Shown here: in pieces, positions 1,591-53,645 of the stretch
Layout of the letters: each line of letters opens with the position of its first letter
How positions within the stretch are numbered: the first letter of the stretch is position 1
Source: Halalkalicoccus subterraneus
Lineage (GTDB): Archaea; Halobacteriota; Halobacteria; Halobacteriales; Halalkalicoccaceae
Direction: 5' to 3'
Assembly (NCBI RefSeq): GCF_003697815.1
Contig: NZ_RDQG01000078.1
Coordinates: forward strand, 87,331-151,330
DNA length: 64,000 nt
Made by a program: the position numbers and the translations under genes
The notes under the pieces: generated by a model
Told to the model about the DNA's origin: nothing
Databases searched by the model: none
What the model saw: only the letters and a program-made list of their open reading frames with translations

Positions 1591-3189
1591 ATGAATATAC
1601 CACTGAACCCGCGTCGCCTCGTCATAATCGTACTCGTCATGGGTCTTGCCATGACCTCGATAGTTGGCCCTGTCGCTGCTGCTGCAGAGACTACGGACGC
1701 TCTCGATACTGGCGGGGTTGTTCTTCAGACCGACGCAGATGATCTAACCGATACCAACGAGGGTGACAGTGCAGCTTCCAACGGGAATAACGATGAGTCG
1801 AATGTCACTGCAGAGGACCTAGAAGAGCTCCCGATCGATATCGACGAAGACGACGTCGATCTCGAGGAGATCAACAACGAATCCGAAGCCAACGCGACCA
1901 ACATTACCAACGGAACCGACGGTGGCACACCGCAAATTGGCGGCGGTGGTGGGACCGGCAGTATCGGCCCAAGCCTTTCACCCGAAGAGAACGCCGAGGA
2001 TCTCGCTGAGTGGCTTCGCGGTCAACTCCGCGGAGCGACCGTCTATCTCGTTGATGAAGTGATCAACGAGATGCTCGGCACGCCCACGCCCGAGAATAAC
2101 GGCTGGCAAGGCATTCTTGGCCAGCCTGTTGGCGAGACGTACAGCGACCTCTACGAGGAGGTCTATATGCAGATGATCCTACCGCCGGCATTTCAGTTCA
2201 TGATCATCGGCTTCATCTTCTTCACCCTCTTCGTTGTGCCGTTTTCGCCGATGACCGGCCAGCGTGTCTGGTCAGTCCTGCTCGCGATGTTCGGCGCCGG
2301 GGCGTTGGTCATGCTCAGTTGGAACGTTGCATCGTTGCTCCATCACGTCTCGGATGCCGTGACGATGTGGTTTCTCCCACAGGGCGAAGAAATTCTCCCG
2401 AGTGGCGACCCGAACAATCCGTTCTCCGAGGAGCACATCAAGCTGAACGCCGGACCACTGGCAGTCGGTCTCGGGGTCTATCTCGCAAGCTGGAACGTCG
2501 GGCTAATGTTGGCGCTGATCCACGGGATCCGCCATGCGATCTTGTTTCTCATGCCGACGATCCTGCCGATTATTCTTGTCGGGATGTACTTCGGGCCTCG
2601 AACGTCGAAATCAGCGTTCTCGGTGCTGTTCTGGCAGTACATCGGTCTGCTCGTGATGAACTGGCCGACAGCACTCCTGCTCTCGATCGGCTATCATGTC
2701 GGCTTTGACTTCGGGATGGGCGCTGCAGGATCGCTCGCGAATATGGCGGTGACGATCGGAGTGATCATCCTCGCGGTCGTGCTCCCGTTGACAATCCAGA
2801 CGTCGTTTCTTGGCGGTTCGTTGGTCGCGATCATCACGAAGGGATCGGTGCTGTCAGCGGGTATGAATACGGCCCGGCGAGTTCTGCCGTCGCGCGGGGA
2901 TACCTCCCGATTGAAGCGCGGTGGGGGCTACATCAATCCTGTCTCACGATTCACTCACGATCGTGCCACCAATAGCAATCGTCAGCGACGACAGGACGTC
3001 GCGGCGACTGACGGCGGCTCATCCACTCAATCGCGACTGACGAGCTACTCACAGTCTCAGTCTCACTCTCGATCAACCTCCTCTCGACGATCGAGGCCGC
3101 CTCGCAGTCAACGAGACACTGGTAGTATCGATGCCCGACGGCGCGAACGCTATCGTCGCCTTCGCAGCAATAGTTCTGATTCACCATGA
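1591..3189 (+). CDS. Polytopic membrane protein, VirB6/TrbL-like position
   Basis: The 532-residue protein begins with a signal-like hydrophobic segment ending GPVAAAA, followed by an acidic Asp/Glu/Asn-rich extracellular stretch (about 35-130). A core with about six membrane helices (about 195-440) comes next, then a basic Ser/Arg/Gln-rich cytoplasmic tail. Its size, its topology and its place directly before virB4 match the polytopic inner-membrane channel component (VirB6/TrbL class) of type IV secretion systems; this is inferred from architecture, not a recognised motif. Its stop overlaps the start of the VirB4 gene by four bases (ATGA), so translation is likely coupled. Confidence 0.65.
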   Translation: MNIPLNPRRLVIIVLVMGLAMTSIVGPVAAAAETTDALDTGGVVLQTDADDLTDTNEGDSAASNGNNDESNVTAEDLEELPIDIDEDDVDLEEINNESEANATNITNGTDGGTPQIGGGGGTGSIGPSLSPEENAEDLAEWLRGQLRGATVYLVDEVINEMLGTPTPENNGWQGILGQPVGETYSDLYEEVYMQMILPPAFQFMIIGFIFFTLFVVPFSPMTGQRVWSVLLAMFGAGALVMLSWNVASLLHHVSDAVTMWFLPQGEEILPSGDPNNPFSEEHIKLNAGPLAVGLGVYLASWNVGLMLALIHGIRHAILFLMPTILPIILVGMYFGPRTSKSAFSVLFWQYIGLLVMNWPTALLLSIGYHVGFDFGMGAAGSLANMAVTIGVIILAVVLPLTIQTSFLGGSLVAIITKGSVLSAGMNTARRVLPSRGDTSRLKRGGGYINPVSRFTHDRATNSNRQRRQDVAATDGGSSTQSRLTSYSQSQSHSRSTSSRRSRPPRSQRDTGSIDARRRERYRRLRSNSSDSP

Positions 3190-6100
3190 GCACAGGAACT
3201 GATCAGCAACGCGCAGCGGACAGACGCAAAGTTCTCCCGAACCGACTGACTGGCCAGCGGATCGCCGGCGTTTCGAAAGTCGCGATTTACGCTGGCGGTG
3301 GTACAGCTGCGATGACATGGTTCGCCGCGGATATGTACGTCCCACCGGGCTACCGGAGTCCAATCTACGGACTTGCAGTGTGCATGTTCGTCGGTTCGAT
3401 CATCGCCTCGTTTCACACGCCGAACCACCTCTCGGTCCACGAACACCTGCGGCGGCGCATTACCCATTATACTCGACAACACACCATGCTGAGTGCACGA
3501 AACGGCAGTACGAAAGGACAGCCACAGAACAACACACTTCCCGGTCAGATTGTTCGGCTTCCGATTGTCCGAAACGTCCGGGGGATTGGCGTCGACGAGG
3601 AGGAACGCTCGCAGGACGCCGTGCAAGTCTCCCGTCCGTTCCATAATTCGCCGGCCATCGAGACAGCAGACGGCGGTGTGATCGGCGCGATTAAGATCCG
3701 CCCGGCGGCAATGGCCGTCGCCGACGAAGGCCACTGGACACGTCGTGTGGAACGGCTCGCGAACGTCATCGATTCGTCGGTCACCGCGAAGACGCAGTTC
3801 ACCTCGAAGATGCGCGCCGTCGATTACGGTGATCGGATGGGTACCTACGACGATCGCGAGCAGGAACTGTTGGATGAACTCGCCGCGAAACACGGCGATA
3901 TCGATACAGCCTATCGAAAGGCTCGTAACGGTGGGATCGATCGCGAAGATCTTGGCCTCTTGGTTGGGGCTGATCTCGCTGATGAGCGCCAGGGTGTGAT
4001 CGATCTGTACGATGTGACGACGCTCAAGCGCAACTACTACGTCACGATCAAGATCGAGCCCGCGGACGTTGTCACCGAAGACAACGTTGAGGAAGGCGGC
4101 GGAATGGCGAACGTTCCGCTACTAGGCCGGCTCTGGAAGCACAAGGAACTCCGTGATCTTCGTCAAGAGGGCGACCACACCCAAGTGATGGTCGAACGGC
4201 TTGAGAACAAACTGGAGACGCTTGAGTCGGACCTGCGGACGATCGAGGACATCAGCACACGAATTCTCTCTTCGACGGAACTCTCGCAGGTCTTTGCCGA
4301 TCACTATCAGGCGGCTAACGCCTACGCGAACGCTGACTTTGGGGACGTCGTCCGGCTCTCACCGAAGCCGACCTCAAGCGAGGGAACAGCGATGTACGGT
4401 GTCGATCACGATCACCTTCGTGATCTCCCTAATGGGCCGCTTGGCGAGTCCAACAGTAGGGTCGAACCCAAAACGCCCGGCGAGATATCCCGGATAGCCG
4501 GTCAGGGGGATGACAGTGATCGCCATACTGTCCCCGATCGTAGTGACCAATCCGACGAGGCCAGCGACGACATCGTTGATACAGCAAAGAACGCTGCCAA
4601 TTCCTTTGCCCAACGCGTTGCGAAGATCAACGACAACCCGATCGCCGACGTCATCCTCACCAAAGAACAGCTAGTCGACCATTATCAGACGGTCGTTGGC
4701 CCCAAGGACGGCATCTACCGGGGCAACGAGAACTGGATCACGATCGACAACGCCGTCTACAGTAAGACGCTCTCAATCCGTGAGTGGCCCGCAGTCCCGA
4801 AGATGGGCATTCTTGAGCCGATCCTTCGCGAGCACGAGCCCGGCGTCGCGGTCAACGTTGCAACTCACATCAACCCGATCGACCAGCAGCGCGCCGAGAT
4901 CGAACTTTCGGACACGGAAGACCAGCTGAAGGACAAAAAAGAGAAAGCCGAGGATTCGCGCCTCCCGATGTTCCTCCAGACCTATCGAAAACAGCACGAC
5001 GAGGCTCAAGAGATGGTCAAGGCGAACCAAGACTCCGAGTACGATCTCTTCGAGACGAACACCCACATCGAACTACGCAGCGATGACCCCGAAGCGCTCG
5101 GCCGCACGATCGACCACATCAACTCGATGATGAACGACGAAGGGGCCGAAGCGCGTCAAGAGACAGCTCATCATTTCGAGGGTTGGCAGTCAGTCGCGCC
5201 CGCATGTGATGACAAACTCGAGGAGCCGATCATGATGTTCGCCGATGGTGTGGCTCGTGAGTTCCCGTGGACCTCTCGGAATCTTCACGAACCGAACGGT
5301 GTCGAGTTCGGCATCAATATGCACACGAACGAGCCACTGTACCTCGACCTCTGGAATCGCAAGACTGGGTTCGATTTCGGGATCTTCACGAAAAAGGGCG
5401 GTGGGAAGACCACGACTGCAACGGAGATCCTCAGCCGACTGAACACGGTCTATCGCGACGATCTCATGACGATCATCATCGACCCACTCCAGGAATACGC
5501 CAACCTCGCGACCATCCACGACGGCGAGCGTCTTGTCGTCGGTGGGGATACGGGCATCAACCCGTTCCACATCGAGGCAACACCCGAGGAGAAGTTAGCG
5601 ACGATCGGGAAGGGCGCACCCTACAAGCACTGGCTTGAGGGCTGCATGGACTTCGTCGAGATGTACTATGCCGACGAGGGGCTGGACTTTGCCGAAAAGA
5701 AGGGCATCTGGCGCATGGCGATCCGAGAAGCCGCCGAGCGCTATGGAATCGAAGACGATCCACAGACTCACTCAGCGGAGTTTCGCCGTGAGCATGGCTA
5801 TTCGGGCGACTGTCCGACGCCGATGGACGCGATCGAGATAATTGATGAGATGACCGACAACCCCGAGGAGTGGGTCCGTTCGAAACCCAGGCAGGAACCC
5901 TCCGAGCGGAAAGTCGAGGAACGGGAGGTCACGGCCGTCGATATCATCAACAACGACATCCAGCCGTTCCTCCCTGGTGGTGAATACGAGCACTTCACCA
6001 AGCAGACTGATATCGACCTTGAGGATTCGACGTTCTTCTACGTCGATATGCAGCAACAGGAAGCCTCTACCTCAATCGGGCTGACGATGCAGGTCGTCTA

Positions 6101-6764
6101 CGACCTCTTCTACGAGATGGTCAAAACCATCGACATCCCGTCAGTCATTTTCATGGACGAGTTCCACTATATGCTACGGGATTCGCTCGCTCAGAAATCG
6201 CTGAATCAGAAGTTCCGCCACGGGCGTCACTGGAACCTCTCACTCGGCGTTGCGACCCAATCGTTCAAGGACTTCTTCGGTGAGGACGCCGACGGTAACA
6301 CCCATCTCACAGACAACGCCCAAGTCCTCTTCGAGAACATGCCCACGCAGATATTCCACCAGGAGGATATGAGCGATGAGTGGGCCGAAGAGATTGGGCT
6401 CACTTCGAACGAAGCTAGATTCATTCGAAATGCGGAGCCGGGTAATCGTGAACTCGGGTACTCGACAGCCCTGCTGCGCGTTTCAGACAAAGGCACCTAC
6501 CCACTGAAGGTGAAGATGGACTTCGAGGAGAATCCTCGTGAGGCGGTCGTGACGGAGTTCGATCCCTCGGAGCACGGCGAGGACTTCTATTCGTATCTTC
6601 TTGAGCACGATGACATCTGCGAGTGGCGGTTCGCTCCGACGACAGACGGCGAGATCGCTACCGATACGGAGATCACAGCAATGCGCACGAACACGGCTGG
6701 AGACTCCGACGAACAGAACCAGGGTCCACAACGGCCCGACGCTAGCGCCACGGGGGACGACTAA
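3186..6764 (+). CDS. VirB4/TraC-type conjugation ATPase
   Basis: An ATPase of 1192 residues that would power assembly of, or substrate transfer through, the type IV channel. Two membrane segments near residues 27-78 anchor it. A Walker A motif (KKGGGKTTT) lies at about 736-746 and is preceded by the FDFGIF strand. It is followed by the IIIDPLQEY strand and a Walker B motif (SVIFMDEFHYML) at about 985-997, then the VATQSFKDF sensor-like strand. The long N-terminal half with helical Glu/Lys-rich segments corresponds to the VirB4 partner-binding region. It is larger than typical bacterial VirB4 (about 800-900 residues), mostly through an acidic insert near 415-470. The start codon overlaps the upstream stop, and the next gene begins directly after its stop. 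Confidence 0.85.
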   Translation: MSTGTDQQRAADRRKVLPNRLTGQRIAGVSKVAIYAGGGTAAMTWFAADMYVPPGYRSPIYGLAVCMFVGSIIASFHTPNHLSVHEHLRRRITHYTRQHTMLSARNGSTKGQPQNNTLPGQIVRLPIVRNVRGIGVDEEERSQDAVQVSRPFHNSPAIETADGGVIGAIKIRPAAMAVADEGHWTRRVERLANVIDSSVTAKTQFTSKMRAVDYGDRMGTYDDREQELLDELAAKHGDIDTAYRKARNGGIDREDLGLLVGADLADERQGVIDLYDVTTLKRNYYVTIKIEPADVVTEDNVEEGGGMANVPLLGRLWKHKELRDLRQEGDHTQVMVERLENKLETLESDLRTIEDISTRILSSTELSQVFADHYQAANAYANADFGDVVRLSPKPTSSEGTAMYGVDHDHLRDLPNGPLGESNSRVEPKTPGEISRIAGQGDDSDRHTVPDRSDQSDEASDDIVDTAKNAANSFAQRVAKINDNPIADVILTKEQLVDHYQTVVGPKDGIYRGNENWITIDNAVYSKTLSIREWPAVPKMGILEPILREHEPGVAVNVATHINPIDQQRAEIELSDTEDQLKDKKEKAEDSRLPMFLQTYRKQHDEAQEMVKANQDSEYDLFETNTHIELRSDDPEALGRTIDHINSMMNDEGAEARQETAHHFEGWQSVAPACDDKLEEPIMMFADGVAREFPWTSRNLHEPNGVEFGINMHTNEPLYLDLWNRKTGFDFGIFTKKGGGKTTTATEILSRLNTVYRDDLMTIIIDPLQEYANLATIHDGERLVVGGDTGINPFHIEATPEEKLATIGKGAPYKHWLEGCMDFVEMYYADEGLDFAEKKGIWRMAIREAAERYGIEDDPQTHSAEFRREHGYSGDCPTPMDAIEIIDEMTDNPEEWVRSKPRQEPSERKVEEREVTAVDIINNDIQPFLPGGEYEHFTKQTDIDLEDSTFFYVDMQQQEASTSIGLTMQVVYDLFYEMVKTIDIPSVIFMDEFHYMLRDSLAQKSLNQKFRHGRHWNLSLGVATQSFKDFFGEDADGNTHLTDNAQVLFENMPTQIFHQEDMSDEWAEEIGLTSNEARFIRNAEPGNRELGYSTALLRVSDKGTYPLKVKMDFEENPREAVVTEFDPSEHGEDFYSYLLEHDDICEWRFAPTTDGEIATDTEITAMRTNTAGDSDEQNQGPQRPDASATGDD

Positions 6765-8141: not shown

Positions 8142-8407
8142 TGACACACCCCAATACTTCCAACGATGACGAATCGGACGCAGAAATCGACTCGCCTCGC
8201 TTCGACGAGTGGATCAAACCCGCGACCAACTGGAATGCGTCGGATCGCTCAGTGAAAACCGATCCGGAAGAGTGGGTATATGTGATCGATCAGCTCCCAC
8301 CGGATACACAAGAACCCACAGTAGCCATAGTACGCGAACAACACCAGCAGTCAACCGAGCAACCGGATGGAAGCAATCGATCAGCGTCAACGGAGGGAGG
8401 CAACTAA
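8141..8407 (+). CDS. Small tail-module protein, paralogous to the preceding C-terminus
   Basis: This 88-residue protein carries the same block as the C-terminus of the preceding protein: DSPRFDEWIKPATNW, then RSVKTDPEEW and Y.I.Q. It therefore looks like a free-standing copy of that tail. Both its start and its stop overlap neighbouring genes by one base (TAATG), so it is embedded in the operon and most likely translated by coupling. A plausible role is a docking or regulatory peptide between the VirB4 and VirD4 ATPases; the sequence shows only the shared module. Confidence 0.65.
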   Translation: MTHPNTSNDDESDAEIDSPRFDEWIKPATNWNASDRSVKTDPEEWVYVIDQLPPDTQEPTVAIVREQHQQSTEQPDGSNRSASTEGGN

Positions 8408-11400
8408 TGGGACTGTTTAATTCATTCACCAGCGACGACGAAAACGAGACTGAAGAGAACGACAACAACGAGACGACCCAAGTGGCGAGTGATGGGGAGT
8501 ACGACCCGACTCGACCAAAACGGATCAACGGCAAAGAATGGTGGATCGAACGCATCGACGAGGTCTCCAACGAGGCCGAAACCTATGCTGGCGAATGGCC
8601 CCGAGCAATGATCGAAAACGCCGCTAAAAAACCCTACCAGCCAGTCTGGGTCGGCTGCTCCGAACGCACGGGCCGAGAATTCGGCGTCGAATTCTCCCGG
8701 GCCTTCCGCCATATCGCCTACCTTGGCTCAACGGGAACGGGGAAGACAACTGCAATCTACAACAGCGTGACCCAGCTGATGATGGGCGGCCACGGTGTCG
8801 CAATCGTCGATCCGAAAGGCGACGATATCTATGATCTCCTACGACGAGTCCCGAAATGGCGTTGGAGTGACGTCGTCTACGTTGACCTCGGTGCGGACTA
8901 CTACTCACTGGAAGATGAAGAGACGGGCGAGGACGTTCCCTACCAGATCGGGTTCAATATCCTCGATACCTACCACGAGCCTGACGAACCTGGTTTCGAC
9001 GAGGAAATCGAGTGGATCGTTGCCGACTTGATTGAACTCCTCGCGGCTGGCGAATACTGGGGACCGCGCATGGACCGAATCGCGAAAAACATGATTCGAG
9101 GGATGGCCCGCCATGAAGAGGAGTTCACCATCATTGAGATCTACTATGCTTTGCTCGAAGAGGAGAATCGCCAGCAGTACGCGGACTTAATCGGCGATTC
9201 GATTGACGACGATGACATCATGTTTCTCGAGGGATTCACCCGACGAATTGCCGAAGAACTCAGTGACGATGAACTCGATCCCTTGCTTGGGCGACTCAAA
9301 GACTGGGTCGAAAATCCGATCACCAGGAAGATTATCGCGATGCGTGGCGCCGAGGTCACTCTTGGCCAGATCGTTAACGAGCAGAAGATCCTGATCGTCA
9401 ACAACGACCTGCCGAAGGAAGCGAAGATCATGACCGCCAACGCAGTCGTTAGCGGAATCTGGACGGCCGTCACCTCTCGGAAAGACCCCTCCGAACAGCA
9501 GATGATGGAACTGGCGGGCATGGACGACGTCGGCAGCGAGTATGCGCCCTTTTTCCTCGCGATCGACGAGTGTCATTCAGTTCTCACTGATGGCGACGAG
9601 ATCGAGACGATGCTGATGGAGGCTCGCTCGAAGAAACTTGGATTGATGCTCTCAACCCAAGTCCTCAGGTCACTTCCGGATGATGCCGCTGACGCAATTA
9701 TCTCCAATTGCAACACGATTCTCTCGCTCACGCCGAATCATCCCGAAGAGGCCCGTGAAATCGCGAATCGATTTGGTGGGATGGACACCGAGGACTTGCA
9801 GCGAACACCTGATTATCATGCACAGACCCAACTCAACAGCGAGGATGACCCGTTCTTGGCGAAGCTCATCCCGCCGTACCCACCACGGCACACGATCGAA
9901 GAAGCATACGAGCTGATCGTCACCTCGCTCGAGAACTACGGTTCACCGGTCCAGAGTGGCGAGGAGATTCTCGACGAGATGCACTTCGACGCTGGTGGAG
10001 CGATTTCGGCTGGAGAAACTGAAGCAGGTGCTAGCGACGGGAGCGAAGAACAGATCGACGTGACGAGTGATCCGGCCGAACAAGCGCTGTATGAAGCGGC
10101 CTATACGGTACAAATCAAACAGGATGCGAGCGGTGAGTTCGTTGCGAGCGAAGCAGTAAAAGACGACTGGCGACGTCGAGCTGGCGAACTCGGTTTCTCC
10201 TCGGAAGTCTCGAACGTCATCGAGCAAGCGCCCGATGAGTATCTCCAACGCCAGCGGCGGGATGGGAAGTCTGTGATGAAGGTGACACCAGAGGGCCTCG
10301 AATATGCAGGGTTAGCCCAAGACACTGGCAGCAGTGCAAGCGGTGGCGGCGACGAACACCGCTGGGTACTCACCGAGGCGTATCGAGCGTTCACGAAGCT
10401 CGGGATGTTCGTCGAACTGCCGACTCAAGAAGGAGAGGAGGATCCGGACGGAATTGCGGATCTTCCGATCGACCCGATGAATGCACAGAATCCACGCGAG
10501 ATGCATCAGCGGGAGGAGCGGCTCCAAGACGAGTATCCCCATCTCTACGAGCTTACCGACGGGTTGAACATCAGCATCGAGGCTGAAACCTCGACATTAG
10601 AAAAGCCGATGCAGACGCTGACAAACCTCCGAAAAGCGATCGACGAGCACAAACTGTGCGTCTTTGCGTGTAAGGACGGGACAGCCAAGCACGACCGGTT
10701 TGACTACTGGCCGCGGCGTGGTGAGGGAATTATCTACGACACCACAGGTCGGGGTGCGAATCGGACGATCAACTACGATCAGATGACGTTTGCTGCTGAC
10801 GTTGACCAGAACGACAATCGGACGTTCTACAACAAAGTCGAAACCCTCGCTGTCGCGCCAGACACGTACGCGCTGCGGCCACGAAGTGAGGCTAATCTCG
10901 TCTGGCGTGAAGAGGGCAAAGAGGTCGTGATGAGCGATGAAGATGGGACTGAGCACGCTCGTTTCGAGAACCTTGAGACAGCGGCAAATCCATCGAAATC
11001 GGACGTCCCCGCTTACTCTGTGTACGATGCTTCTGAGCGTGAGTACACGGTTCGAGCCAGCGGTGAGAAGCTGGTCTATGGGTCACGGGAGGAGTTGGAA
11101 GACGACTGGATGGTGGTTCGAGCACCGTTCATTCCGGAAAATGAGTTCGACCGGATGCCGACGCCGGAGGACTTCCTGTTCGTGGTCTTCCCCGACGACG
11201 ATACGGAGGAATACACCAAGCCGATGATCTGTGAACAGGGCGAGGTCCGACCGCTGCTACCAATGGATACCTCTTGGGACACGAAAGAGAAGGCGGACAC
11301 GAACGAACCAGCAGACGATTCTACCAATGAGGGACCGGTGTCGAAGGATACTGACGAGCAATCTCGTGTGCCATCACAGGAACCATCCGACGAAGAGGAC

Positions 11401-11439
11401 GAAGACAATGGAGTGAGCTTTGCCAGGTCAGGTCGCTAA
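8407..11439 (+). CDS. VirD4/TraD-like coupling ATPase
   Basis: This gene encodes 1010 residues from the ATG at 8407, which overlaps the upstream stop; an in-frame extension to 8209 would run through the previous gene and is rejected. A Walker A motif (GSTGTGKTTA) lies at about 106-116, a strand with VDPKGDD follows, and a Walker B motif (FFLAIDECHSVL) lies at about 380-391. This is the TraG/TraD/VirD4 pattern for a hexameric DNA pump that brings DNA to the channel. No N-terminal membrane anchor is visible, unlike bacterial VirD4. The C-terminal 500 residues contain a winged-helix-like region (about 560-640) and an acidic Ser/Asp tail. It is the last gene of the operon and ends 14 bases from a convergent gene. 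Confidence 0.85.
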   Translation: MGLFNSFTSDDENETEENDNNETTQVASDGEYDPTRPKRINGKEWWIERIDEVSNEAETYAGEWPRAMIENAAKKPYQPVWVGCSERTGREFGVEFSRAFRHIAYLGSTGTGKTTAIYNSVTQLMMGGHGVAIVDPKGDDIYDLLRRVPKWRWSDVVYVDLGADYYSLEDEETGEDVPYQIGFNILDTYHEPDEPGFDEEIEWIVADLIELLAAGEYWGPRMDRIAKNMIRGMARHEEEFTIIEIYYALLEEENRQQYADLIGDSIDDDDIMFLEGFTRRIAEELSDDELDPLLGRLKDWVENPITRKIIAMRGAEVTLGQIVNEQKILIVNNDLPKEAKIMTANAVVSGIWTAVTSRKDPSEQQMMELAGMDDVGSEYAPFFLAIDECHSVLTDGDEIETMLMEARSKKLGLMLSTQVLRSLPDDAADAIISNCNTILSLTPNHPEEAREIANRFGGMDTEDLQRTPDYHAQTQLNSEDDPFLAKLIPPYPPRHTIEEAYELIVTSLENYGSPVQSGEEILDEMHFDAGGAISAGETEAGASDGSEEQIDVTSDPAEQALYEAAYTVQIKQDASGEFVASEAVKDDWRRRAGELGFSSEVSNVIEQAPDEYLQRQRRDGKSVMKVTPEGLEYAGLAQDTGSSASGGGDEHRWVLTEAYRAFTKLGMFVELPTQEGEEDPDGIADLPIDPMNAQNPREMHQREERLQDEYPHLYELTDGLNISIEAETSTLEKPMQTLTNLRKAIDEHKLCVFACKDGTAKHDRFDYWPRRGEGIIYDTTGRGANRTINYDQMTFAADVDQNDNRTFYNKVETLAVAPDTYALRPRSEANLVWREEGKEVVMSDEDGTEHARFENLETAANPSKSDVPAYSVYDASEREYTVRASGEKLVYGSREELEDDWMVVRAPFIPENEFDRMPTPEDFLFVVFPDDDTEEYTKPMICEQGEVRPLLPMDTSWDTKEKADTNEPADDSTNEGPVSKDTDEQSRVPSQEPSDEEDEDNGVSFARSGR

Positions 11440-11452
11440 TATCAGTACTTCA

Positions 11453-12085
11453 TCATGCTTGACTGATCGTCACATCATCGAGATACTCCTCAAGACGCTC
11501 TGGGTCGAGGTCTGTTTCATCGAAGAGGTAGTCTCGCAGTGCATACATCCCAAGTCTGAGTCGGTGAAACTCTTCTTGCTGATCTTCACTCCACGCCCCA
11601 TGTGGTTCCACATCGATAGTGGCGACGGTCTGAGCGAGTTGGGCTAACTGTTCCTGTTGGTCTTCGATCTGTTCACTCAGCTCTTCGAGAGTGGCCTCAT
11701 CGGTGGATTGGTCTTGTGACTGAAGCCGGTCGATCTCCGCCTGAGTCGTATCGACTCGTTCAGATAGTTGGTGTACTTTTTCTGGGAGATCGGATAATGT
11801 TAGTCCGGTCTCGTCTGCTGTATTAAGATCAGTCGTGAGCTCTTGTCCAGACTCTGTGAGCGAGATCTCCTTAGCAGGAACGACCGTCCCAGTGGCCTCG
11901 GGTTGATGGGTTGAGACAAGCCCCTGTGGCTCCAAATACTCAGAAATTCGATACAGGATAATCCGATTCTCGCTAAGGTCGGTTGTCTCCCGCACCTCCG
12001 TCGTGGTGAGTGCTGTCTCGGCGTCGGCAAGCGCGCGAATGATCTCAATTGATTTCCAGTCAAGCGAGTCAGCGGCAGTGCTCAT
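11453..12085 (-). CDS. Winged-helix regulator with coiled coil
   Basis: The 210-residue product has an N-terminal winged helix (about 5-75; LDWKSIEIIRALADAETALTTTEVRETT then the recognition region LSENRIILYRISEYLEPQGLV). A Gln/Glu-rich heptad region (about 95-150) is likely to form a coiled-coil dimer, and a helical C-terminus (LRLGMYALRDYLFDE) follows. This architecture is common among haloarchaeal plasmid regulators. It is convergent with the secretion operon, and its promoter faces the large segment without genes at 12.1-13.5 kb. It could regulate either; the operator is not evident, although 12109-12195 has repeated TCTTC/GAAGA motifs (ATATTCTCGAAGAAGAG, TTCTTCGAATATTTC). Confidence 0.75.
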   Translation of the reverse strand: MSTAADSLDWKSIEIIRALADAETALTTTEVRETTDLSENRIILYRISEYLEPQGLVSTHQPEATGTVVPAKEISLTESGQELTTDLNTADETGLTLSDLPEKVHQLSERVDTTQAEIDRLQSQDQSTDEATLEELSEQIEDQQEQLAQLAQTVATIDVEPHGAWSEDQQEEFHRLRLGMYALRDYLFDETDLDPERLEEYLDDVTISQA

Positions 12086-12108: not shown

Positions 12109-12200
12109 AGATATATCTTCTCCAAGAATATTCTCGAAGAAGAGTTCTCTAAGAAGAGTCTCGTAGGGATATTTCTTCGAATATTTCTCGGCGTTTCTCG
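12109..12200. promoter_or_regulatory. Repeated TTCT/AGAA-rich regulatory stretch upstream of the winged-helix gene
   Basis: Within about 90 bp directly upstream of the gene starting at 12085 the words AATATTCTCGAAGAAGAG, TCTAAGAAGAG and TTTCTTCGAATATTTCTC occur, several of them mutually inverted (AATATTC/GAATATT). This is the pattern of multiple operator half-sites and may be the autoregulatory site. Inference from repeats only. Confidence 0.4.
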
Positions 12201-12334
12201 GATAGGAAGGCGACGCGTTAGCTAAGAGTCGGGAAAGGTACCCAGTAGGTCGAAACAAAGGATACCCCCAAGGGCGGGTGCACAAGCGAGCTAACAAACC
12301 CTCAGGAAAAGTGAGTAAATCACCAAATAGGGCT

Positions 12335-12351
12335 CACTGGAAGTCCACCTC
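12335..12351 (+). repeat. Left arm of ~1.05 kb-spaced inverted repeat
   Basis: CACTGGAAGTCCACCTC; its reverse complement matches 13388-13404 at 15 of 17 positions. Confidence 0.6.
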
Positions 12352-13387
12352 GAGACAGCAAAGCTGGGAGTCAGACTAAGCTCAAACAAGGGGGAGTCCC
12401 AAGAGCGAACTCATCGAAACAAGAGCAGACCTCACAGCATTGAACTAAACAACGAAAGAAGACACCTACTCAGTCCGAGAGAAGATAAGTGGCTCTAAAA
12501 AGGCGATGAGAGAGGGCCGATTCAGCATCGATGACATGGAAGGCGATATAGCAGCAATGGGGAGTCGATCAGTGCACGACAAAGGGATCTTCATCTCGGG
12601 AGAGGCCTGCCTCAAAGATTGTCGGAATAGAGAGCTGTTCATCGGAAGCGCCGTGTCTAAAAGAACAGTAGCAAGCCTCGTTCACTACTCTGGATAGTCG
12701 GTATTCCCGCTGGTACAGAAGCTTCTAGAATAGATAACGAGGAGACACACGAGTTTCACACTGGTAGTAGGTGAGCGAGCACTGGTAGGGGGTCCAGGGA
12801 GAGCGAAGCAAGTGTGGGGTCCCCACGAGTGAGACAGAAGAACAGTGGAGGTGCCTCGACGCACGATTTCCAAGTCGGTTTCAGCATAGCCTGGGTATCC
12901 ATCTGTCTTCGAAGAGGGGTTACCTCACCACCGGGACAGGATACAAGCAATCACCGGCAGACAGCAGTGTCAGTGAGACCAGGGACACTACTAACCAGAT
13001 TGTTGGCTCCGCAGTCAACTAAGCTGCGCAGAAGAAAGGCAGTACTGAGAGATCCGTCGCTTCGACAGTACCAGCACCGCAAGAAGAGCGACATTACTAC
13101 TAGAAGTAGCAACACCGTCATAGGACAGCTATCCGACTCCCGGGGGAACTAGCGTCATTAACTGAGAAACTCGAGGAGAGTGGTAGTATCATCAGAGTCT
13201 GGGAGAGTAGTCTATCAGTGTAAATCGATCTATGACGTAAGACTCCCAGCAAGCGAGAGCTCATTGACTCCCCAGTCGAGCTATGTACTCTGGTATCCTC
13301 TTTGACTATCGACAATAGCGAGCCCAGCGAATCGAGAAAAGTGGATCCCATGCGAGTTATAGTAAGGGACCCCTGTCTACTCTGAGT

Positions 13388-13404
13388 GAGGTGGACCTCC
13401 ACTG
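13388..13404 (+). repeat. Right arm of ~1.05 kb-spaced inverted repeat
   Basis: GAGGTGGACCTCCACTG; pairs with 12335-12351. It also folds locally (GAGGT-GG-ACCTC), so local and long-range helices could compete. Confidence 0.6.
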
Positions 13405-13489
13405 CTATCGAAACACGATCGCTCGTGGTTTGATCTCAAGGTGATCATATTCAGTTATTTGATGAAGAAGCGGATGGTAAGGATCACTT

Positions 13490-15079
13490 ATGCGCGAATC
13501 CCGTTTGGAAGAGATATTACTTCGGATGAGAGATGGCCAGGGTTCAGAATCCCATATTCAATTAGAGATGAACCGAATAAAGCAGCAAGTCAGAGACGAC
13601 AAAGAATCTACTTCTTCGACTCACGAGGTATTTGAGGACCTGAATGATATTGATATCAATCATCCTATTGTACCTGCACTAGAGGGCCTAGTCCGATGGG
13701 AAGCCAACCAAGACTATCACAATGGTGCTGTCCCTGCCTTAGATGCATATCGTGATGCAGTTGATGAGGCTGTTAGTGATAGATGGCCTAATGTTGCCGT
13801 GCATGCAGCCCAACAGGCCGCATTAGTAGCAGCAGACATCAACGACGACAAAGAACTTGATTTCTGGATACCACGAATTGTAGAGTTGTTTGACCAGCAC
13901 TGGGAGGAGCTCACTCCAAACACACAAGGGAACCTCATAGACGCATTCCCACGATTACAGTACTTTGCAGACGGGAAAATACTTGATGAATTTGAAAACG
14001 TCCTTGAGTCGGCAGCAACAGCTTCACATGAAAAAGAGGAGTATGGCGTTGAACGACGGTTTCTCAATGCCCTCTTAGATATTCGGCGGAAACGGGATCA
14101 AGATGTCACTGTACAGGAGCAACTGCTTATTGAATCGTACAATGCTGAGGCAGAGGCTACTGAGAACCGTGGACAGATGCACCGGGCAATAGTGTTTCAA
14201 CGAGCACTGGATAACTGCACTGAGTTTGCTGACGAAGAGCAAGTAGTCGAGTGGAAACGAGAGCTGCGCTCAGCAAACCGGACGGCGATCGACGAAGAGA
14301 TGGCGTCCATTGAACACAAGCCCAACAAGGAGGAAATCGAGGAACTAGAACAGTTCATTGATGAGATCGTTGACCAAGCCCGTCAAGCCTCGCAGAATGA
14401 TTTTGGCGGTGCTGCATTGATGTTTCTGCTCTCACGGAACGATTTCGTGCCACGATTAGAGGAGTTACGCACAATGGACGAAAGAGTATCCATCATGGAT
14501 TTAGTGGGCCGTCGTAACATGACGAAAGAGGGTGATGCAATCCCCGACCCCGAGGACCGAACGCGGCCCCACGGTTACCAAGCTTCTGTACAGCTACGAG
14601 ACGCCATTGTAACTAGTATTCTCTTTCGAGTGTTCGATGAGAATATTATAACCGAAGGCGATCTGTATCTGTATCTCTGGGCGATCGATGAACTCACGGT
14701 TCATGACGTCGCCTACCTGACTGATTTCATTGTCGCTGTTTTCGATAATCGATATGCTGATGCGCTGCATATTGGTGTCCCACGCCTAGAAGGAGCTATA
14801 GCGTCGATACTGAAGGACCGTGGATTTGAAACAGCTAGCCTACAGGATGGATACACTACACCGGTCCCGTTACCTGGACTTCTAAACATGCTTGATGGGA
14901 AGGTTGATGAAAATCTCGTAGAGTATTTACGGTTCAGATATTCCGATATTTCGGGCCAGCGCGTCCGAAATCAGGTAGCTCACGGGCGCGCCGAATACAA
15001 ATTGGCGGCTCCTCAAATGTGCCTAATACTCCTATACGATATCTTCCGCTCGATCAGTTGGATTGAACACAATCTATGA
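13490..15079 (+). CDS. Large helical protein with C-terminal HEPN-type RNxxxH motif (DUF4209-like)
   Basis: A 529-residue, mostly helical soluble protein. Near the C-terminus it carries SGQRVRNQVAHGRA, with Arg493 and His498 in the R-(polar)-x3-H spacing that defines the active site of HEPN ribonucleases. It is followed by a helix (LILLYDIFRSISWIE), as in HEPN folds. The overall layout (long helical repeat region, then a C-terminal RN..AHG block) resembles the DUF4209 group; I cannot confirm the family without a profile search. HEPN proteins are frequent in defence and toxin systems and cleave RNA. The gene lies just downstream of the long purine-rich segment without genes on the same strand. 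The ATG at 13490 has no clear ribosome-binding site, so the message may be leaderless. Confidence 0.65.
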   Translation: MRESRLEEILLRMRDGQGSESHIQLEMNRIKQQVRDDKESTSSTHEVFEDLNDIDINHPIVPALEGLVRWEANQDYHNGAVPALDAYRDAVDEAVSDRWPNVAVHAAQQAALVAADINDDKELDFWIPRIVELFDQHWEELTPNTQGNLIDAFPRLQYFADGKILDEFENVLESAATASHEKEEYGVERRFLNALLDIRRKRDQDVTVQEQLLIESYNAEAEATENRGQMHRAIVFQRALDNCTEFADEEQVVEWKRELRSANRTAIDEEMASIEHKPNKEEIEELEQFIDEIVDQARQASQNDFGGAALMFLLSRNDFVPRLEELRTMDERVSIMDLVGRRNMTKEGDAIPDPEDRTRPHGYQASVQLRDAIVTSILFRVFDENIITEGDLYLYLWAIDELTVHDVAYLTDFIVAVFDNRYADALHIGVPRLEGAIASILKDRGFETASLQDGYTTPVPLPGLLNMLDGKVDENLVEYLRFRYSDISGQRVRNQVAHGRAEYKLAAPQMCLILLYDIFRSISWIEHNL

Positions 15080-15658: not shown

Positions 15659-15754
15659 AGGTAGAGACAGACCCGCTCCTTGGGGCACTTCGACGTTAGA
15701 AGGAATGCCCGCCTGTTGGTGCAGGCGAGCTGGTCTGTTTCAGCAACACAGACC

Positions 15755-16240
15755 ATGTGCACGAACACGATCGACGCACTTGAGTTCGACGCATCGACCA
15801 GCAAACGCGCTCAGTACGAAGCCTTCGACTTTGAGCTTGAAGCGCCCGGTCTCGTAACGGTTCGCAACGAAAGCCACGAGAACGCCGATATGCACAGCTA
15901 TCGCGTGAACGTTGAGGACGGGCTTCCGGTCGCCTGTGAATGCCCATCTGATACCTATCATGATGGAGCCTGCAAGCACCGGGTCGCAGTGGCGATTCGT
16001 GAGCCTGTTCTTGAGGCTGCAAGCGACTACGAGAGTGGCGAGGAGCGGGAGGTCGCGACCGACGGCGGGACGACTGTCGAACGTTCAGCAGCCAGTGCAC
16101 CCGATCCGGAACAGCGTTATAATGAACGACCAGCGAACTGCGACTGTCTACCGACGTTTGAGGGTCTTCCGTGCTGGCCCTGTTATCGTGACGGGTTCCG
16201 AACACCAAACCCACATGCGGAGGCTGATACTGAGGACTGA
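15755..16240 (+). CDS. SWIM zinc-finger protein
   Basis: The product has 161 residues from the ATG at 15755; an upstream in-frame codon at 15680 would add 25 residues that overlap the likely transcription start. The motif CECPSDTYHDGACKH places Cys61, Cys63, Cys73 and His75 in the CxCx(n)CxH arrangement of SWIM domains, which bind DNA or proteins. A variable acidic linker follows, then a second Cys cluster (CDCLPTFEGLPCWPCY) that may bind another zinc. This two-part layout is common in haloarchaeal mobile regions. The role is unknown. Confidence 0.8.
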   Translation: MCTNTIDALEFDASTSKRAQYEAFDFELEAPGLVTVRNESHENADMHSYRVNVEDGLPVACECPSDTYHDGACKHRVAVAIREPVLEAASDYESGEEREVATDGGTTVERSAASAPDPEQRYNERPANCDCLPTFEGLPCWPCYRDGFRTPNPHAEADTED

Positions 16241-16293
16241 AGCGGATCCCAGTGATTGAATCGCTCGTTAGCAAACATGACTACCGGTTTTGA

Positions 16294-16881
16294 TTGATGA
16301 AACAAGCGCGATTAACGGATGGCGACTGGACTACCTCGGCGACTGAGAGCCACTCATCGCCCGCTCAGAGTGATGAGAACGAAGCGAGTGGCGAGAGTTA
16401 TCCAGAGACGAAGGCGGCGCTGTGCAAGCGAGCAGTGGCCCATGCTAGGAAGATTGCAGCCGAACACTTTCCAGAGTTGCCTGTTGAGGTAATCGACTGG
16501 GAGACCTCAACGCGGATGCAGCGCTCGGCTGGCATCGCGATCTACGAGCAACAGAGTGAGCAGATCACGATCCGTCTCTCGTGGGATGCCTACGAGGCGT
16601 ATGGCTGGGAGCAGTTTTCCCGAGTCGTTCGTCACGAGTTGATCCACGCCTGGCAGTATCATGAGTACAGTGAGGCCAGTCATGGACCGACGTTTCGCCA
16701 GTGGGTTAAGCCGCTGGAGACAGATCGTCATTGCGAGCAGTACGCTGAGCCGAAGTACTGGGTTATCTGTGAGGAGTGTGAAAGTCGTGATCCGCGGTAT
16801 CGCCGGTCGAAAGTCGTGAAGCAACCAGAGCAGTATTTGTGTGGGCGATGTGGTGGTGAGATTTCGATTGAAGAAGCATAG
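16294..16881 (+). CDS. SprT-like zinc metalloprotease
   Basis: A 195-residue protein with the zinc-protease helix HELIHAWQYHE (residues 114-124; HExxH with His114, Glu115 and His118) followed by HGPTFRQWV, the usual third-ligand region of SprT/Spartan domains. A C-terminal zinc ribbon (CEECESRD, then CGRCGG) follows. SprT-like proteases cut proteins bound to DNA, including cross-linked adducts. The N-terminal 40 residues are acidic and low in structure. A hairpin element of the dispersed family begins 16 bases after the stop codon. Confidence 0.85.
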   Translation: MMKQARLTDGDWTTSATESHSSPAQSDENEASGESYPETKAALCKRAVAHARKIAAEHFPELPVEVIDWETSTRMQRSAGIAIYEQQSEQITIRLSWDAYEAYGWEQFSRVVRHELIHAWQYHEYSEASHGPTFRQWVKPLETDRHCEQYAEPKYWVICEECESRDPRYRRSKVVKQPEQYLCGRCGGEISIEEA

Positions 16882-20898: not shown

Positions 20899-21070
20899 GA
20901 ATAGCTCGTCGGAACCCACGGTGAAAAGTCTCTAGGAACACTCTTCTTCTCCATATCGTCCACTAACACATACGCACATCAACCTAACAGCTGCTTCATT
21001 TTCCTTAATTGGGAACTGAAGTTAGTACCAACCGCTACATACAGGCAAAGATGATCACATCAGCTACTCG

Positions 21071-21286
21071 TTATCTGTCACTGAACCATCCTGCATGTTC
21101 TGGGTTGCCAAGCACATCTGACCACCAGTAGGAAAGCAAGATCACAACCGCCATCAGAAGCCCTGATAGAACTCCAAATATGACGGTATCGCCGAAGAGA
21201 TAAGAGACAACCCCGATTGCTGCTGGCATCGTCAATAAAAGAGCAACTGACTGTCGGAGCGCAAGTGACGTATCCATCTCAGCCAC
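21071..21286 (-). CDS. Small two-span membrane protein
   Basis: A 71-residue product, MAEMDTSLALRQS, then two hydrophobic helices (VALLLTMPAAIGVVSYLF and VIFGVLSGLLMAVVILLSYWW) and a polar tail GNPEHAGWFSDR. No family recognised; similar small membrane proteins fill the gaps in this region. Confidence 0.6.
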   Translation of the reverse strand: MAEMDTSLALRQSVALLLTMPAAIGVVSYLFGDTVIFGVLSGLLMAVVILLSYWWSDVLGNPEHAGWFSDR

Positions 21287-21592
21287 AATATGATTATATC
21301 ATCGGTGTTACATGTATGCTCTTCGACAATGGATAAGTACGAACTACCTACCAGTTGCTTCACTTGCCTGCCTAAGAAATCGAGAGAGGCTGATAGATAC
21401 AGGCGAAGTAGATAACGGAGCAGCAATCAATCATACGATACCTGTCAAGAACAGTGCGCTGAATACAGAGGGAGAGTTCAGCACGGCGAGTCTATTTACT
21501 TTACACTAGTAAAGCGTCCATTAGAAAGGCTGTGCGAACCAAACGCCGACCCCTGGCACAGTTTTTTATTCATCCGATAGCAGACTCCAAGT

Positions 21593-21796
21593 ATGAACGA
21601 CCAACTCAAGTGGGGAATTGGAACCCTCATTCTTGGCGGAGTCGGGTTTGTTCTTCTCGGAATTACTGGTGCATTTCAGAACCCATTTGGGCCAAATATA
21701 CAAAATAGACCAGTCAACTTGATTGCGATTGGGGGCAGTCTCCTTCTCGTTGTCTCTGGAGTCGCAACAGTCGTACAATCTCGCCGCCCTGATTAG
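21593..21796 (+). CDS. Small two-span membrane protein
   Basis: A 67-residue product, MNDQLKWGIGTLILGGVGFVLLGITGAF, a short loop, then LIAIGGSLLLVVSGVATVV and QSRRPD. Two clear membrane helices; the arrangement is common among haloarchaeal small proteins of unknown function. Confidence 0.6.
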   Translation: MNDQLKWGIGTLILGGVGFVLLGITGAFQNPFGPNIQNRPVNLIAIGGSLLLVVSGVATVVQSRRPD

Positions 21797-22311
21797 TGCA
21801 CAACCTGAATCAAACGGTTCAGTTCTTTATCAATTGCTGAAGTCAGTCTGACCGACTCGCGCTCTGTATTCAGCACGGATCTATCAACACCTCTCTCATT
21901 TGATGGAACAGTCACGTTAGATTCGCACGTTCTACGTATCAGTGGCGTCACCGAAGTTTGACGTGAAATCAAGTCAGTCAGATCATTCTATGCTATCTTT
22001 CCTTGTGCAACAATCGCCTTTGTGAGGAAGAGAAATGTTGCACAAGGAAAGACGGACGGAGAAATATTAGATATAGAGACATATTTGGTATGCCCACGTT
22101 CTTAGACAGGCCAGGTATGCCTACGTCTTGATGGGGTCGGATGATCCCCAAATACTAGAAATAGGACCATTATAGTGTATCCATGCATATAATAGTCAAA
22201 ACCGCATGACGAGAGTTAATCGACCACTATTCTATAGTACTATACCAACTTGCAACCAGTCTCTCACTCCACACAATTGACAAGATTCTTTGAGCGTTAT
22301 ATATAGGGATT
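21797..22311. other. Intergenic stretch with one hairpin element
   Basis: No gene is recognised here. The only structured feature is hairpin copy B; the rest is A+T-rich (near 22050-22300), with several TATA-like tracts such as ATATTAGATATAGAG. Confidence 0.5.
21997..22051. repeat. Dispersed hairpin element, copy B
   Basis: Extended arms: CTTTCCTTGTGCAACA (21997-22012) and TGTTGCACAAGGAAAG (22036-22051), a perfect 16-bp inverted repeat with a 23-bp spacer; the longest arms of the family in this window. Confidence 0.85.
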
Positions 22312-25564: not shown

Positions 25565-25816
25565 TTAGGACATCACGTTTCCTGCAGGGGGTTGCTCGAG
25601 ATCCCGATCACAACGATCGTGATAGCGGTCGGCCGCATTCTCGTCGACCACAACGAGCTTCTTGCCACGCCGTTTCGTCTGCTCGACGTCGTCTTTGCCC
25701 AGTTTCTCGAGGAAGTTCATGACACGGGCCACAGTTTGGGTGTGGGGCTTCGAGCCTTCAGCGGCGGTGATGACCTTCTTGATCGTCTGGCTATCGAGCA
25801 CGAGTCCAGCCTTTCA
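25565..25816 (-). pseudogene. C-terminal fragment of the protein also decayed at 20.4 kb, cut by the CRISPR array
   Basis: Reads GLVLDSQTIKKVITAAEGSKPHTQTVARVMNFLEKLGKDDVEQTKRRGKKLVVVDENAADRYHDR on the minus strand. The other copy shows that a membrane-anchored N-terminal half (ending EKAPAGLVL) should precede it. Here the match stops at AGLVL, where the first CRISPR repeat begins. A GTG or CTG near 25801 could start a soluble fragment. It seems the gene was severed when array and gene were joined. Confidence 0.65.
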
Positions 25817-26172
25817 GACGAACCCCTTGTGGGGTTGAAGCACGGTGTGTGTTGCACGAGCGTTAACCGACCGCCGGGCTTTCAGACGAACCCCTTGTGG
25901 GGTTGAAGCTTTTCCGCCGGGCGTTCATGGGCCACGACGCAACTCTTTCAGACGAACCCCTTGTGGGGTTGAAGCCCCGTGCTCATGGGGGTTCGACACC
26001 GACGACCTAGCTTTCAGACGAACCCCTTGTGGGGTTGAAGCACGGACGGAGAGAGCACCAACACCGACGCGCCGACTTTCAGACGAACCCTAGTTGGGTT
26101 GAAGCAGGCTCTCCAATTTCCGGGCCGGAAACGTACTCATGCTTTCAGACGAACCCTTTGTGGGGTTGAAGC
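25811..26172 (+). CRISPR. Orphan CRISPR array, 6 repeats and 5 spacers
   Basis: Repeats at 25811-25841, 25879-25909, 25945-25975, 26011-26041, 26076-26105 and 26142-26172. Each begins CTTTCAGACGAACCC and ends TGGGGTTGAAGC (31 nt; the fifth is 30 nt with changes around TAGTTGGG, the sixth has TTTGTGG). Spacers are 34-37 nt and unlike one another. The repeat is of the haloarchaeal type I-B kind (TTTCAGACGAACC...GTTGAAGC). The last two repeats are degenerate, suggesting that end is the old, distal one. No cas gene is in the window. The expected leader side is occupied by a gene fragment, so the array is probably no longer growing but could still be used by Cas proteins encoded elsewhere. Confidence 0.95.
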
Positions 26173-50578: not shown

Positions 50579-50720
50579 CTAGATGCAATCGACTCTAAGG
50601 TAGATTCTCCGTGTGCCAGAGGAAATGACGGGGTAGTCTATTCAGCTGTGAGCATTTCATCTGGCACACGGGGTGGTGGATGAGATGAGGATCGTATGGA
50701 TTGCGGCTATTGTACTTCTA

Positions 50721-50756
50721 GAATAGCTAGCTATTCGATCTATTCATACTATCTGT
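50721..50756. repeat. AATAG/CTATT array 3, with 16-bp palindrome
   Basis: GAATAGCTAGCTATTC (50721-50736) is a perfect palindrome; the unit continues as TCTATTCAT-ACTATCTGT in 9-bp phase. It lies 50-85 bp upstream of parA, a fitting place for a centromere and an autoregulatory site. Confidence 0.65.
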
Positions 50757-50806
50757 GCTTTGTATACTATATCTATAAGTATCCCCTTCTACAAAACCTG
50801 AATACT

Positions 50807-51736
50807 ATGGCTAGCAAGAATAGCCAAAATATCGTGAATAGCCCAAATAGCCCATATCAATCAGCGGACGTAGATAGTGCTCCGCGTGCTGTTTCAGTTA
50901 GCATGCTAAAGGGTGGTGTCGGGAAGTCGACTATCGCAGTTAATGTTGCTCGTCAATTGGCTGCACACGGTCATAGAACTCTTCTAATTGATCTCGATCC
51001 GAACGGACATGCGTCAGTCGGGCTTGGATTCAGTGTTCAGTATCACGACACCAGTGAGGATATTGGTGATGTTTTCTTTGGTGAGGCGAACCCATCCTCC
51101 GTAATCTATAATACTGACTATGAGTTCGATCTTCTCCCCTCTAGTGAGGAACTTGAGCAAATTGAGAGAGAAATCGTCATTGGAGATGTGTTCCAGCCGT
51201 CTGCACTCTTGAAACGGGAAGTGGTCACACCGTTGCTCGGGGATGGGTATGACTATATCGTCACTGACTCTCCGGCATATCGGTCTCGACTTACTGATAA
51301 TGCGCTTGTAGCGACGACGAACCTTCTCCTTCCTCTTGCGCCAGGCAATGAAGCGATATCCGGGCTCGAACGCACGATCGAACGCCAAATTGCGCCACTA
51401 CGTAAGCATCTCGATGTTGATGTACTCGCTCTTGTTCCGAATATTCTGAGTGGCCGGATCGACCAACAAACCCAAGACAGACAGCTCCTTGAGCGATTGA
51501 ACTCCCACGATAACTTGCAGGACCGTATCCCAAACTTCGCTCGAATCACTGACTGGGAGGCTGTTGACTCAGGTGAGCAAAAGCCCGTCCCGGGTATTCG
51601 AGATCGAACAAGCATTACGAAAGCATACGGTGAGAACAAACCACTCTTGGATTATGATCCGGAGTGTGATCAGCTTGCCTGCTTCGAGGAGCTTGCTCAT
51701 ATCGTCGAAACTGGGAGAGTGATTCGCCATGACTGA
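50807..51736 (+). CDS. parA: ParA/Soj-type partition ATPase
   Basis: The product has 309 residues from the ATG at 50807; a start at 50696 would translate the upstream array. The deviant Walker A motif KGGVGKST lies at 35-42, followed by LLIDLDPNGHASVGLG and the Walker B region YDYIVTDSPAYRS. ParA drives separation of plasmid copies by an ATP-dependent gradient on the nucleoid. Its first codons themselves contain the 9-bp motif (GAATAGCCA, GAATAGCCC, AAATAGCCC), giving the Asn-Ser-Pro repeats NSPNSP. The stop overlaps the next gene by eight bases. Confidence 0.9.
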   Translation: MASKNSQNIVNSPNSPYQSADVDSAPRAVSVSMLKGGVGKSTIAVNVARQLAAHGHRTLLIDLDPNGHASVGLGFSVQYHDTSEDIGDVFFGEANPSSVIYNTDYEFDLLPSSEELEQIEREIVIGDVFQPSALLKREVVTPLLGDGYDYIVTDSPAYRSRLTDNALVATTNLLLPLAPGNEAISGLERTIERQIAPLRKHLDVDVLALVPNILSGRIDQQTQDRQLLERLNSHDNLQDRIPNFARITDWEAVDSGEQKPVPGIRDRTSITKAYGENKPLLDYDPECDQLACFEELAHIVETGRVIRHD

Positions 51737-52846: not shown

Positions 52847-52895
52847 TGAGTAAAAGTACTCCTAGCAACAGAGATAACATTTGACGACACTCCCT

Positions 52896-52915
52896 CCCCG
52901 GATTTCAAATGAATT
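52896..52915 (-). repeat. Origin box 1 (inverted)
   Basis: CCCCGGATTTCAAATGAATT; its reverse complement matches box 2. Confidence 0.8.
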
Positions 52916-53042
52916 CCGTTCCAGACGAAGGAGACGGTCGCAGAGCATCTTTGAGGTAAAGATACAACAGAAGTGCTATTCCACAGGGAGAAGACTCAAA
53001 TTGCTTGTTTTGCCGAACTATGGCTTCAAGTAGAACTCGCCT

Positions 53043-53075
53043 CTTTTTGATTTCTATTATATATATTACTATACC
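53043..53075. other. A+T-rich probable DNA-unwinding element
   Basis: The longest uninterrupted A+T tract of the origin (CTATTATATATATTACTATA), placed between the inverted and direct boxes. Confidence 0.6.
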
Positions 53076-53362
53076 GGTAAGCTAGTAGTAGTAGTAGTAG
53101 TACGAATCCTTCTCTTTGAGCCCCTAGACCCAGTTTCAGCGTATCACGCCTCCGATTTTTTCTTTGTTTTATAACTGATCTTGTGCTTGGTCTTGGTCTA
53201 TGACGTCACGGTTCTATGCTATCGGAACAGTTACAGCGCACCTCTTGGAAGACCGAATTTCAGATGATATCTGCTGTATAGGCTCTTTACTCTATGGTTT
53301 GGACCATTTCACAGGTCTTTGCCCTGCTCTTGAACACTCAGCAGTACGTCTATCTTTGTAGG

Positions 53363-53383
53363 AATTCATTTGAAATCCGGGGT
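53363..53383 (+). repeat. Origin box 2
   Basis: ATTCATTTGAAATCCGGGGT. Confidence 0.8.
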
Positions 53384-53423
53384 GGGTGTCTATCTATTCC
53401 TGACCACTGTGATCTTGTAGCAC

Positions 53424-53445
53424 TATTTCATTTGAAATCCGGTGT
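53424..53445 (+). repeat. Origin box 3
   Basis: TTTCATTTGAAATCCGGTGT, same as box 5. Confidence 0.85.
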
Positions 53446-53479
53446 GAGATAGACACTACGAAGCTGACTGCTCGTCAGA

Positions 53480-53497
53480 TCATCTGAAATTCGGTGT
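53480..53497 (+). repeat. Origin box 4 (diverged)
   Basis: TCATCTGAAATTCGGTGT, two changes from boxes 3 and 5. Confidence 0.7.
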
Positions 53498-53623
53498 TGT
53501 CACAAGTATCTACTTTGACCGTTCTGATCTCTTTGTCGTAGCAGTAAATATTCGTAGTAGGTCTGTAGCGCTGTTTCTCGGCTTTTGTCAGATGCGTATC
53601 GATGGCGGGGAAAGAACTAAGTC

Positions 53624-53645
53624 GATTTCATTTGAAATCCGGTGT
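53624..53645 (+). repeat. Origin box 5, touching the orc1 start codon
   Basis: TTTCATTTGAAATCCGGTGT directly followed by the ATG of orc1. Bound protein here would block the transcription start or leader, which suggests autoregulation. Confidence 0.8.

Follow-up and report, generated by a model that had tools for sequence, protein, structure and literature searches.

The window, a 64-kb stretch of contig 78 of the Halalkalicoccus genome G000 whose nearest plasmid relative is H. jeotgali B3 plasmid 2, carries an operon for a type IV secretion system (T4SS) on its plus strand. The operon encodes a VirB4/HerA-like ATPase (3186-6764; Pfam DUF87, 1e-6), a VirD4/TraG-D-like coupling ATPase with a TraM recognition domain (8392-11439; TraG-D_C, 3e-8; TrwB_AAD_bind, 5e-8) and a protein without a Pfam match. 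Beyond it lie a divergent minus-strand gene for a winged-helix (wHTH) and coiled-coil protein (11453-12085), tandem operator-like repeats of the form TTCTCnAAGAA (12118-12157) and a non-coding element on the plus strand (12203-13440), which begins just past the repeats and ends past the last of its motif cores. The structural model of the wHTH protein is of modest confidence (pLDDT 70.7) and finds its best PDB match in PadR-operator structures; such a fold, together with the operator-like repeats, would fit control by this protein. On the right, the element is followed by an unrelated open reading frame of 529 aa (13490-15079), whose C-terminal part contains the HEPN-like motif RNQVAHG and which matches DUF4209 below threshold. 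The first-pass annotation had pointed out this frame as starting 50 bp downstream on the same strand. It is missing beside the other copies of the element, hence does not belong to the unit and is probably cargo.

That annotation had also seen no credible gene in the segment, which comparison with its homologs bears out. When homologs of 78-82% identity from the same genus were projected onto 12203-13440, the candidate reading frames were interrupted by stops and frame-shifting (non-triplet) indels, and no frame was kept. No tRNA was found in the element, and a search against Rfam 15 returned no family at gathering score and just two chance-level matches at E ≤ 10. The purine richness described earlier holds as well, with 53-67% purines per 100 bases across most of the length. 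The AT skew is 0.25; of 210 sampled segments of 1.2 kb from the 64-kb stretch, just 3 reach this absolute value.

Word counting revealed GGGAGTC, GGGGTCC and their reverse complements, recurring about every 26 nt with the two orientations segregated. To describe the arrangement we use a code in which P stands for GGTACC or GGATACC, Q for GGGAGTC and R for GGGGTCC, with lower-case letters for the reverse complements. The window copy reads PP QQQ RR pp qqq rrr; its first half thus consists of P, Q and R blocks and its second half of their complements in the same, crossing order, all as GC-rich cores of 6-9 nt that are mostly about 25 nt apart. On the plus strand, the P block (12237-12266), complementary to the p block, holds GGTACC (12237) and GGATACC (12260). 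The Q block (12340-12398) consists of the degenerate GGAAGTCC (12340) and of GGGAGTC at 12366 and 12392, spaced by 26-27 nt, with an extra GGGAGTC outside the block at 12560-12566, and the R block (12789-12822) of GGGGTCC at 12789 and 12816. In the second half, GGGTATC (12893) and GGGGTTACC (12916) form the p block (12893-12924), GACTCCC at 13135, 13241 and 13266 the q block (13135-13272), and GGATCCC (13343), GGACCCC (13367) and GGACCTC (13393) the r block (13343-13399), where the first and last cores each carry one change relative to the exact reverse complement of R. The GAGTC and GACTC words already noticed in both orientations are therefore not only present, they are ordered.

Between the two halves of the window copy there are 44 complementary 7-mers against 22.6 expected, a number that none of 100 shuffles reached, and in 42 elements taken together there are 3328 against 1051. 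Such counts alone do not single out the segment, as the putative replication origin, the CRISPR region and a region at 21.0 kb of the same window score equally high or higher. Predicted energies of the duplexes between cores and their complements range from about -11 to -19 kcal/mol.

Within the genus, blastn identified relatives that span the full length with 78-82% identity. G000 itself has two more of them, G001 two, G004 three and H. jeotgali one, which lies at about 347.6-349.0 kb of the B3 plasmid NC_014299; in G002 there is a short fragment. The order PP QQQ RR pp qqq rrr was seen in 10 of 10 Halalkalicoccus copies with few stray matches. One copy in the same genome (L020) shares only the first 300 bases and is unalignable beyond them, yet keeps the motif code. 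Identity is 96.2% at core positions, 88% of which are invariant, and 74.8% at the remaining positions (37% invariant), a contrast matched by just 1 of 1071 circular shifts of the core mask. About 170 bases present in most other copies are missing from the window copy after 13287. The Halalkalicoccus copies adjoin the divergent HTH/coiled-coil gene and mostly have an intact transfer operon upstream; at three loci (L022, L024 and L025) the operon is decayed and the element is still present.

Elements outside the genus were gathered from the sequences that follow coupling-protein homologs in other Halobacteriales. An nhmmer search of other genera with the genus alignment gave no significant match, so that homology between the families rests on position, flanking genes and architecture. 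In G165, which belongs to the same genus cluster as named Haladaptatus, loci L071 and L077 read PP QQQ RR pp qqqqq rrr(r), the order found in Halalkalicoccus, with other sequences (GGGATTC/GAATCCC and GGGGTTC/GAACCCC). Their outer P/p pair differs in concert, being GGAACACC/GGTGTTCC in L071 and GGAATACC/GGTATTCC in L077, a compensatory change. L074 and L076 carry Q, R, q and r. A third motif family, a two-motif version, uses the words GGCACCC, GGACAGTC, GGGTGCC and GACTGTCC. It showed the order c'c'-A-C-a' in all 13 loci first sampled, with almost no interspersion and with 74 copies of ACAGTC and 79 of GACTGT; further copies were found later. A pattern search independent of the coupling gene located numerous members of this family in the Haladaptatus-type genus g27 and also in g77, which is Haloterrigena by plasmid match, with 0-4 chance-like matches in other genomes and almost none for a reversed control pattern. 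In the majority of 20 loci taken from its matches, the element is flanked by a divergent wHTH gene, recognizable as such or as a remnant, and several of the loci have no transfer operon nearby. This identifies the wHTH/coiled-coil gene plus the element as the constant unit, which T4SS genes usually, though not always, accompany. In most copies and in all motif families, a gene of this same type and orientation borders the element. Motif type tracks plasmid type and not host, given that two motif families occur within G165, and motif blocks and their partners differ together between clades.

Several further features were seen in these comparisons. A block conserved between the middle and last motif blocks of L071, L077, L081 and L084 (TTACARnGGAAGTCYGGTGT) spans two motif families and is a possible functional site. 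An Actinarchaeum-type element (L083, 1236-2432) has an extra complementary block at its right end and reads cc A C a c c d c c. The wHTH proteins at L090 and L184 score 24.7 and 24.2 bits, below the cut-off of 25.3 bits, against Pfam Replic_Relax (PF13814; E ~3e-5 to 4e-5), whose name suggests a family of plasmid replication or relaxation. A conserved 5' hairpin considered for Haladaptatus-type leaders was dropped, as its stem is absent from some copies.

The composition of the element is strand-specific. On the operon (plus) strand, A exceeds T in all 42 elements, and it does so in 39 of 42 right halves despite the inversion of the motifs there; the mean contents of A and T are 0.32 and 0.12 in left halves, 0.26 and 0.18 in right ones. 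The flanks of the a' sites in the third family fit a model of the A-site flanks in direct orientation with a log-likelihood of -1510, compared to -1689 for the reverse complement. Both the A and the a' core are nearly palindromic and are told apart by their central base, so that shared descent of the units could account for part of this direct similarity. Since the motifs invert between the halves and neither the A/T asymmetry nor the flanks do, the function appears to be one of a single strand. On the choice between an RNA and a transfer origin that the first-pass annotation had left, the strand-specific base composition, like the flank code, speaks for a molecule that is single-stranded.

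Conventional folding analyses gave little signal. Minimum free energies compared with dinucleotide shuffles on both strands yielded z-scores mostly near 0 (0.3 for the window copy), the only outliers being L084 (-2.4) and L076 (-3.3), and sliding windows in RNAalifold revealed a modest local signal, strongest on the minus strand at about 13.1-13.3 kb. The check for covariation that had been proposed, here an R-scape-like test against simulations on a tree, run for 9 Halalkalicoccus and 21 Haladaptatus-type sequences, found nothing above the null within clades, where the cores are invariant. For the same reason the comparison of G-U with A-C variants (6 versus 10), which does not favour RNA, is uninformative. 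Moreover, the crossing order of P-Q-R and p-q-r means that a nested hairpin cannot satisfy all cores, and pairing of this kind would escape nested folding programs. With no covariation above the null within clades and ordinary folding energy, the argument for pairing draws on the concerted change between clades and on the strand asymmetry. From these sequence patterns, pairing of the cores between the halves is likely, either as RNA or as single-stranded DNA. Inverted sites for a DNA-binding protein could likewise change in concert.

The first-pass annotation had pictured a large RNA with short hairpins, of the GOLLD, ROOL and OLE sort, closed by a helix between 12335-12351 and 13388-13404. 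In the window copy this helix forms 15 of 17 pairs, which exceeds 60 shuffles (maximum 13), and that part of the claim stands. Conservation of the helix in relatives does not, as the corresponding columns of eight homologs contain 12, 5, 3, 11, 9, 6, 6 and 7 Watson-Crick pairs of 17. The most plausible view is that a Q-type core here meets an r-type core, the 3' side of the helix being formed by the last r core (GGACCTC, 13393). A single RNA held together by this helix is thus very unlikely, the more so as neither excess folding stability nor covariation nor an Rfam match was found. GOLLD, ROOL and OLE RNAs often reside on mobile elements, and they share with the element a large size and the absence of coding capacity. 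These bacterial RNAs form homo-oligomers via multiple short base-paired contacts (PMC12286853). Such contacts resemble the short pairings proposed here. However, the element is archaeal, lacks an Rfam match, a stable nested fold and covarying hairpins, and its identical complementary motifs form regular arrays that follow a crossing order.

That the element is functional and non-coding is strongly supported, as judged from sequence, by its strict architecture and its conservation across many copies and genera. It belongs to a widespread family that is apparently undescribed, neither Rfam nor the open-access papers searched having yielded a description. Our preferred explanation, to which we give an even chance, is that the segment is the Halalkalicoccus version of a noncoding RNA of haloarchaeal T4SS plasmids that carries multivalent arrays of complementary stickers. 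We infer that the element acts as a single-stranded molecule read from the plus strand, probably an RNA of 1.2-1.5 kb, which would be made divergently from the repressor-like wHTH/coiled-coil gene at its left and be controlled by that gene. The P, Q and R stickers of 6-9 nt on T-poor spacers and their complements p, q and r, in the same order in the second half, would pair either in a pseudoknotted, laddered fold or between molecules and so build a multivalent complex. This complex may serve the T4SS-encoding replicon as a substrate, scaffold or regulator of transfer. RNA is favoured as the acting molecule. The fuller proposition, a natural and widespread archaeal RNA whose ordered complementary stickers and T-poor spacers produce a laddered or multimeric complex dedicated to T4SS/DNA-transfer replicons, is put forward tentatively and we hold it to be rather doubtful.

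The main rival, less probable and nonetheless a serious contender, takes the element for a DNA locus (oriT- or clt-like) that acts in cis in transfer by the haloarchaeal T4SS and at which the wHTH/coiled-coil protein and the VirD4-like ATPase would act on double- or single-stranded DNA and the arrays would be protein sites or folds of the transferred strand. Such a locus is suited by the position of the element, directly after the coupling-protein gene, beside a gene for a DNA-binding protein and in constant orientation, and its motifs behave accordingly, following the plasmid type in G165 and being invariant within a clade as protein sites are. Complete elements persist with their wHTH gene where the transfer operon is decayed or absent nearby, which counts against the RNA reading and recalls mobilizable plasmids that keep their oriT; together with the wHTH gene and the link to T4SS genes, this retention keeps the transfer locus alive as an explanation. 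Conjugative oriT regions with accessory proteins, of the F-plasmid TraM/TraY type, are likewise non-coding and adjoin genes for a coupling protein and a small DNA-binding protein. The element is far longer, however, and differs from them in its paired motif blocks and strand-asymmetric composition, the T-poor spacers and flanks keeping their direction while the motifs invert. Streptomyces clt/TraB 8-bp repeats and FtsK KOPS are short, repeated, polar motifs beside the gene of a VirD4/FtsK-like ATPase, as are the motifs here. Unlike those sites, which have one polar motif in one orientation, and unlike iterons, each element has 2-3 motif types, each also as its complement in a separate block and in non-mirror order. 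MOB-suite typing may weigh against the transfer locus too: of 77 PLSDB plasmids with this coupling protein, only H. jeotgali plasmid 2 (MOBP) was typed conjugative, and the other 76 were called non-mobilizable with no relaxase typed. Archaeal conjugative plasmids are, however, reported to have no recognizable relaxases (PMC9905601).

Two other DNA-based explanations carry little weight. A site for partition (centromere) or plasmid stability, recognized by the wHTH/coiled-coil protein, would agree with an HTH and coiled-coil protein next to a repeat-rich region and with the persistence of this pair without a T4SS. We consider it improbable, since no partition NTPase is adjacent (the ParA-like frame of the window lies at 50696-51736), the operator-like repeats differ in sequence from the arrays and the strand-specific composition would be left unexplained. 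Being repeat-rich and intergenic, the element might also be taken for a plasmid replication origin, the explanation that we credit least of all, because elsewhere on the replicon inverted repeats around ATTTCATTTGAAATCCGGTGT (52889-53645) lie just ahead of an AAA+ Orc1/Cdc6-like gene (53592-55022). The inverted repeats beside an orc1/cdc6 gene that mark such origins thus occur at 52.9-55.0 kb and not at the element, and 52889-55022 is the likely origin.

Returning to the sticker-array RNA, its closest counterparts in design are the designed or disease-related multivalent 'sticker-and-spacer' RNAs, in which complementary stickers are repeated on poorly structured spacers in a manner suited to multivalent pairing. 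In contrast to those, the element is natural and conserved and has an ordered P-Q-R/p-q-r arrangement instead of one simple repeat. We know of no family in which ordered blocks of short motifs precede equally ordered blocks of their complements, and therefore regard the design, as distinct from a proven mechanism, as new; each known kind (large RNA, oriT, clt, origin) either lacks one or more of the defining features examined or is still a candidate. If the element is an RNA, its crossing-order complementary arrays, with partners that change together between clades, are to our knowledge unlike any RNA class and would represent a natural case of programmed multivalent RNA pairing. Either way, as a conserved non-coding companion of the gene for the coupling protein in numerous haloarchaeal plasmids, it is a concrete candidate, open to deletion, for the transfer locus or for an RNA dedicated to the system.

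Some other features of the window were recorded alongside. The region at 20900-22300, with unusually many complementary 7-mers between its halves, includes a 20-nt inverted repeat (21458/21855) and a perfect one of 17 nt (21996/22036). A short CRISPR-like array (25811-26172) has six 30-nt repeats about 66 nt apart (Rfam CRISPR-DR24). At 15680-16881, a SWIM zinc-finger frame is followed by a SprT-like metalloprotease frame, and relatives of these occur near several other copies of the element.
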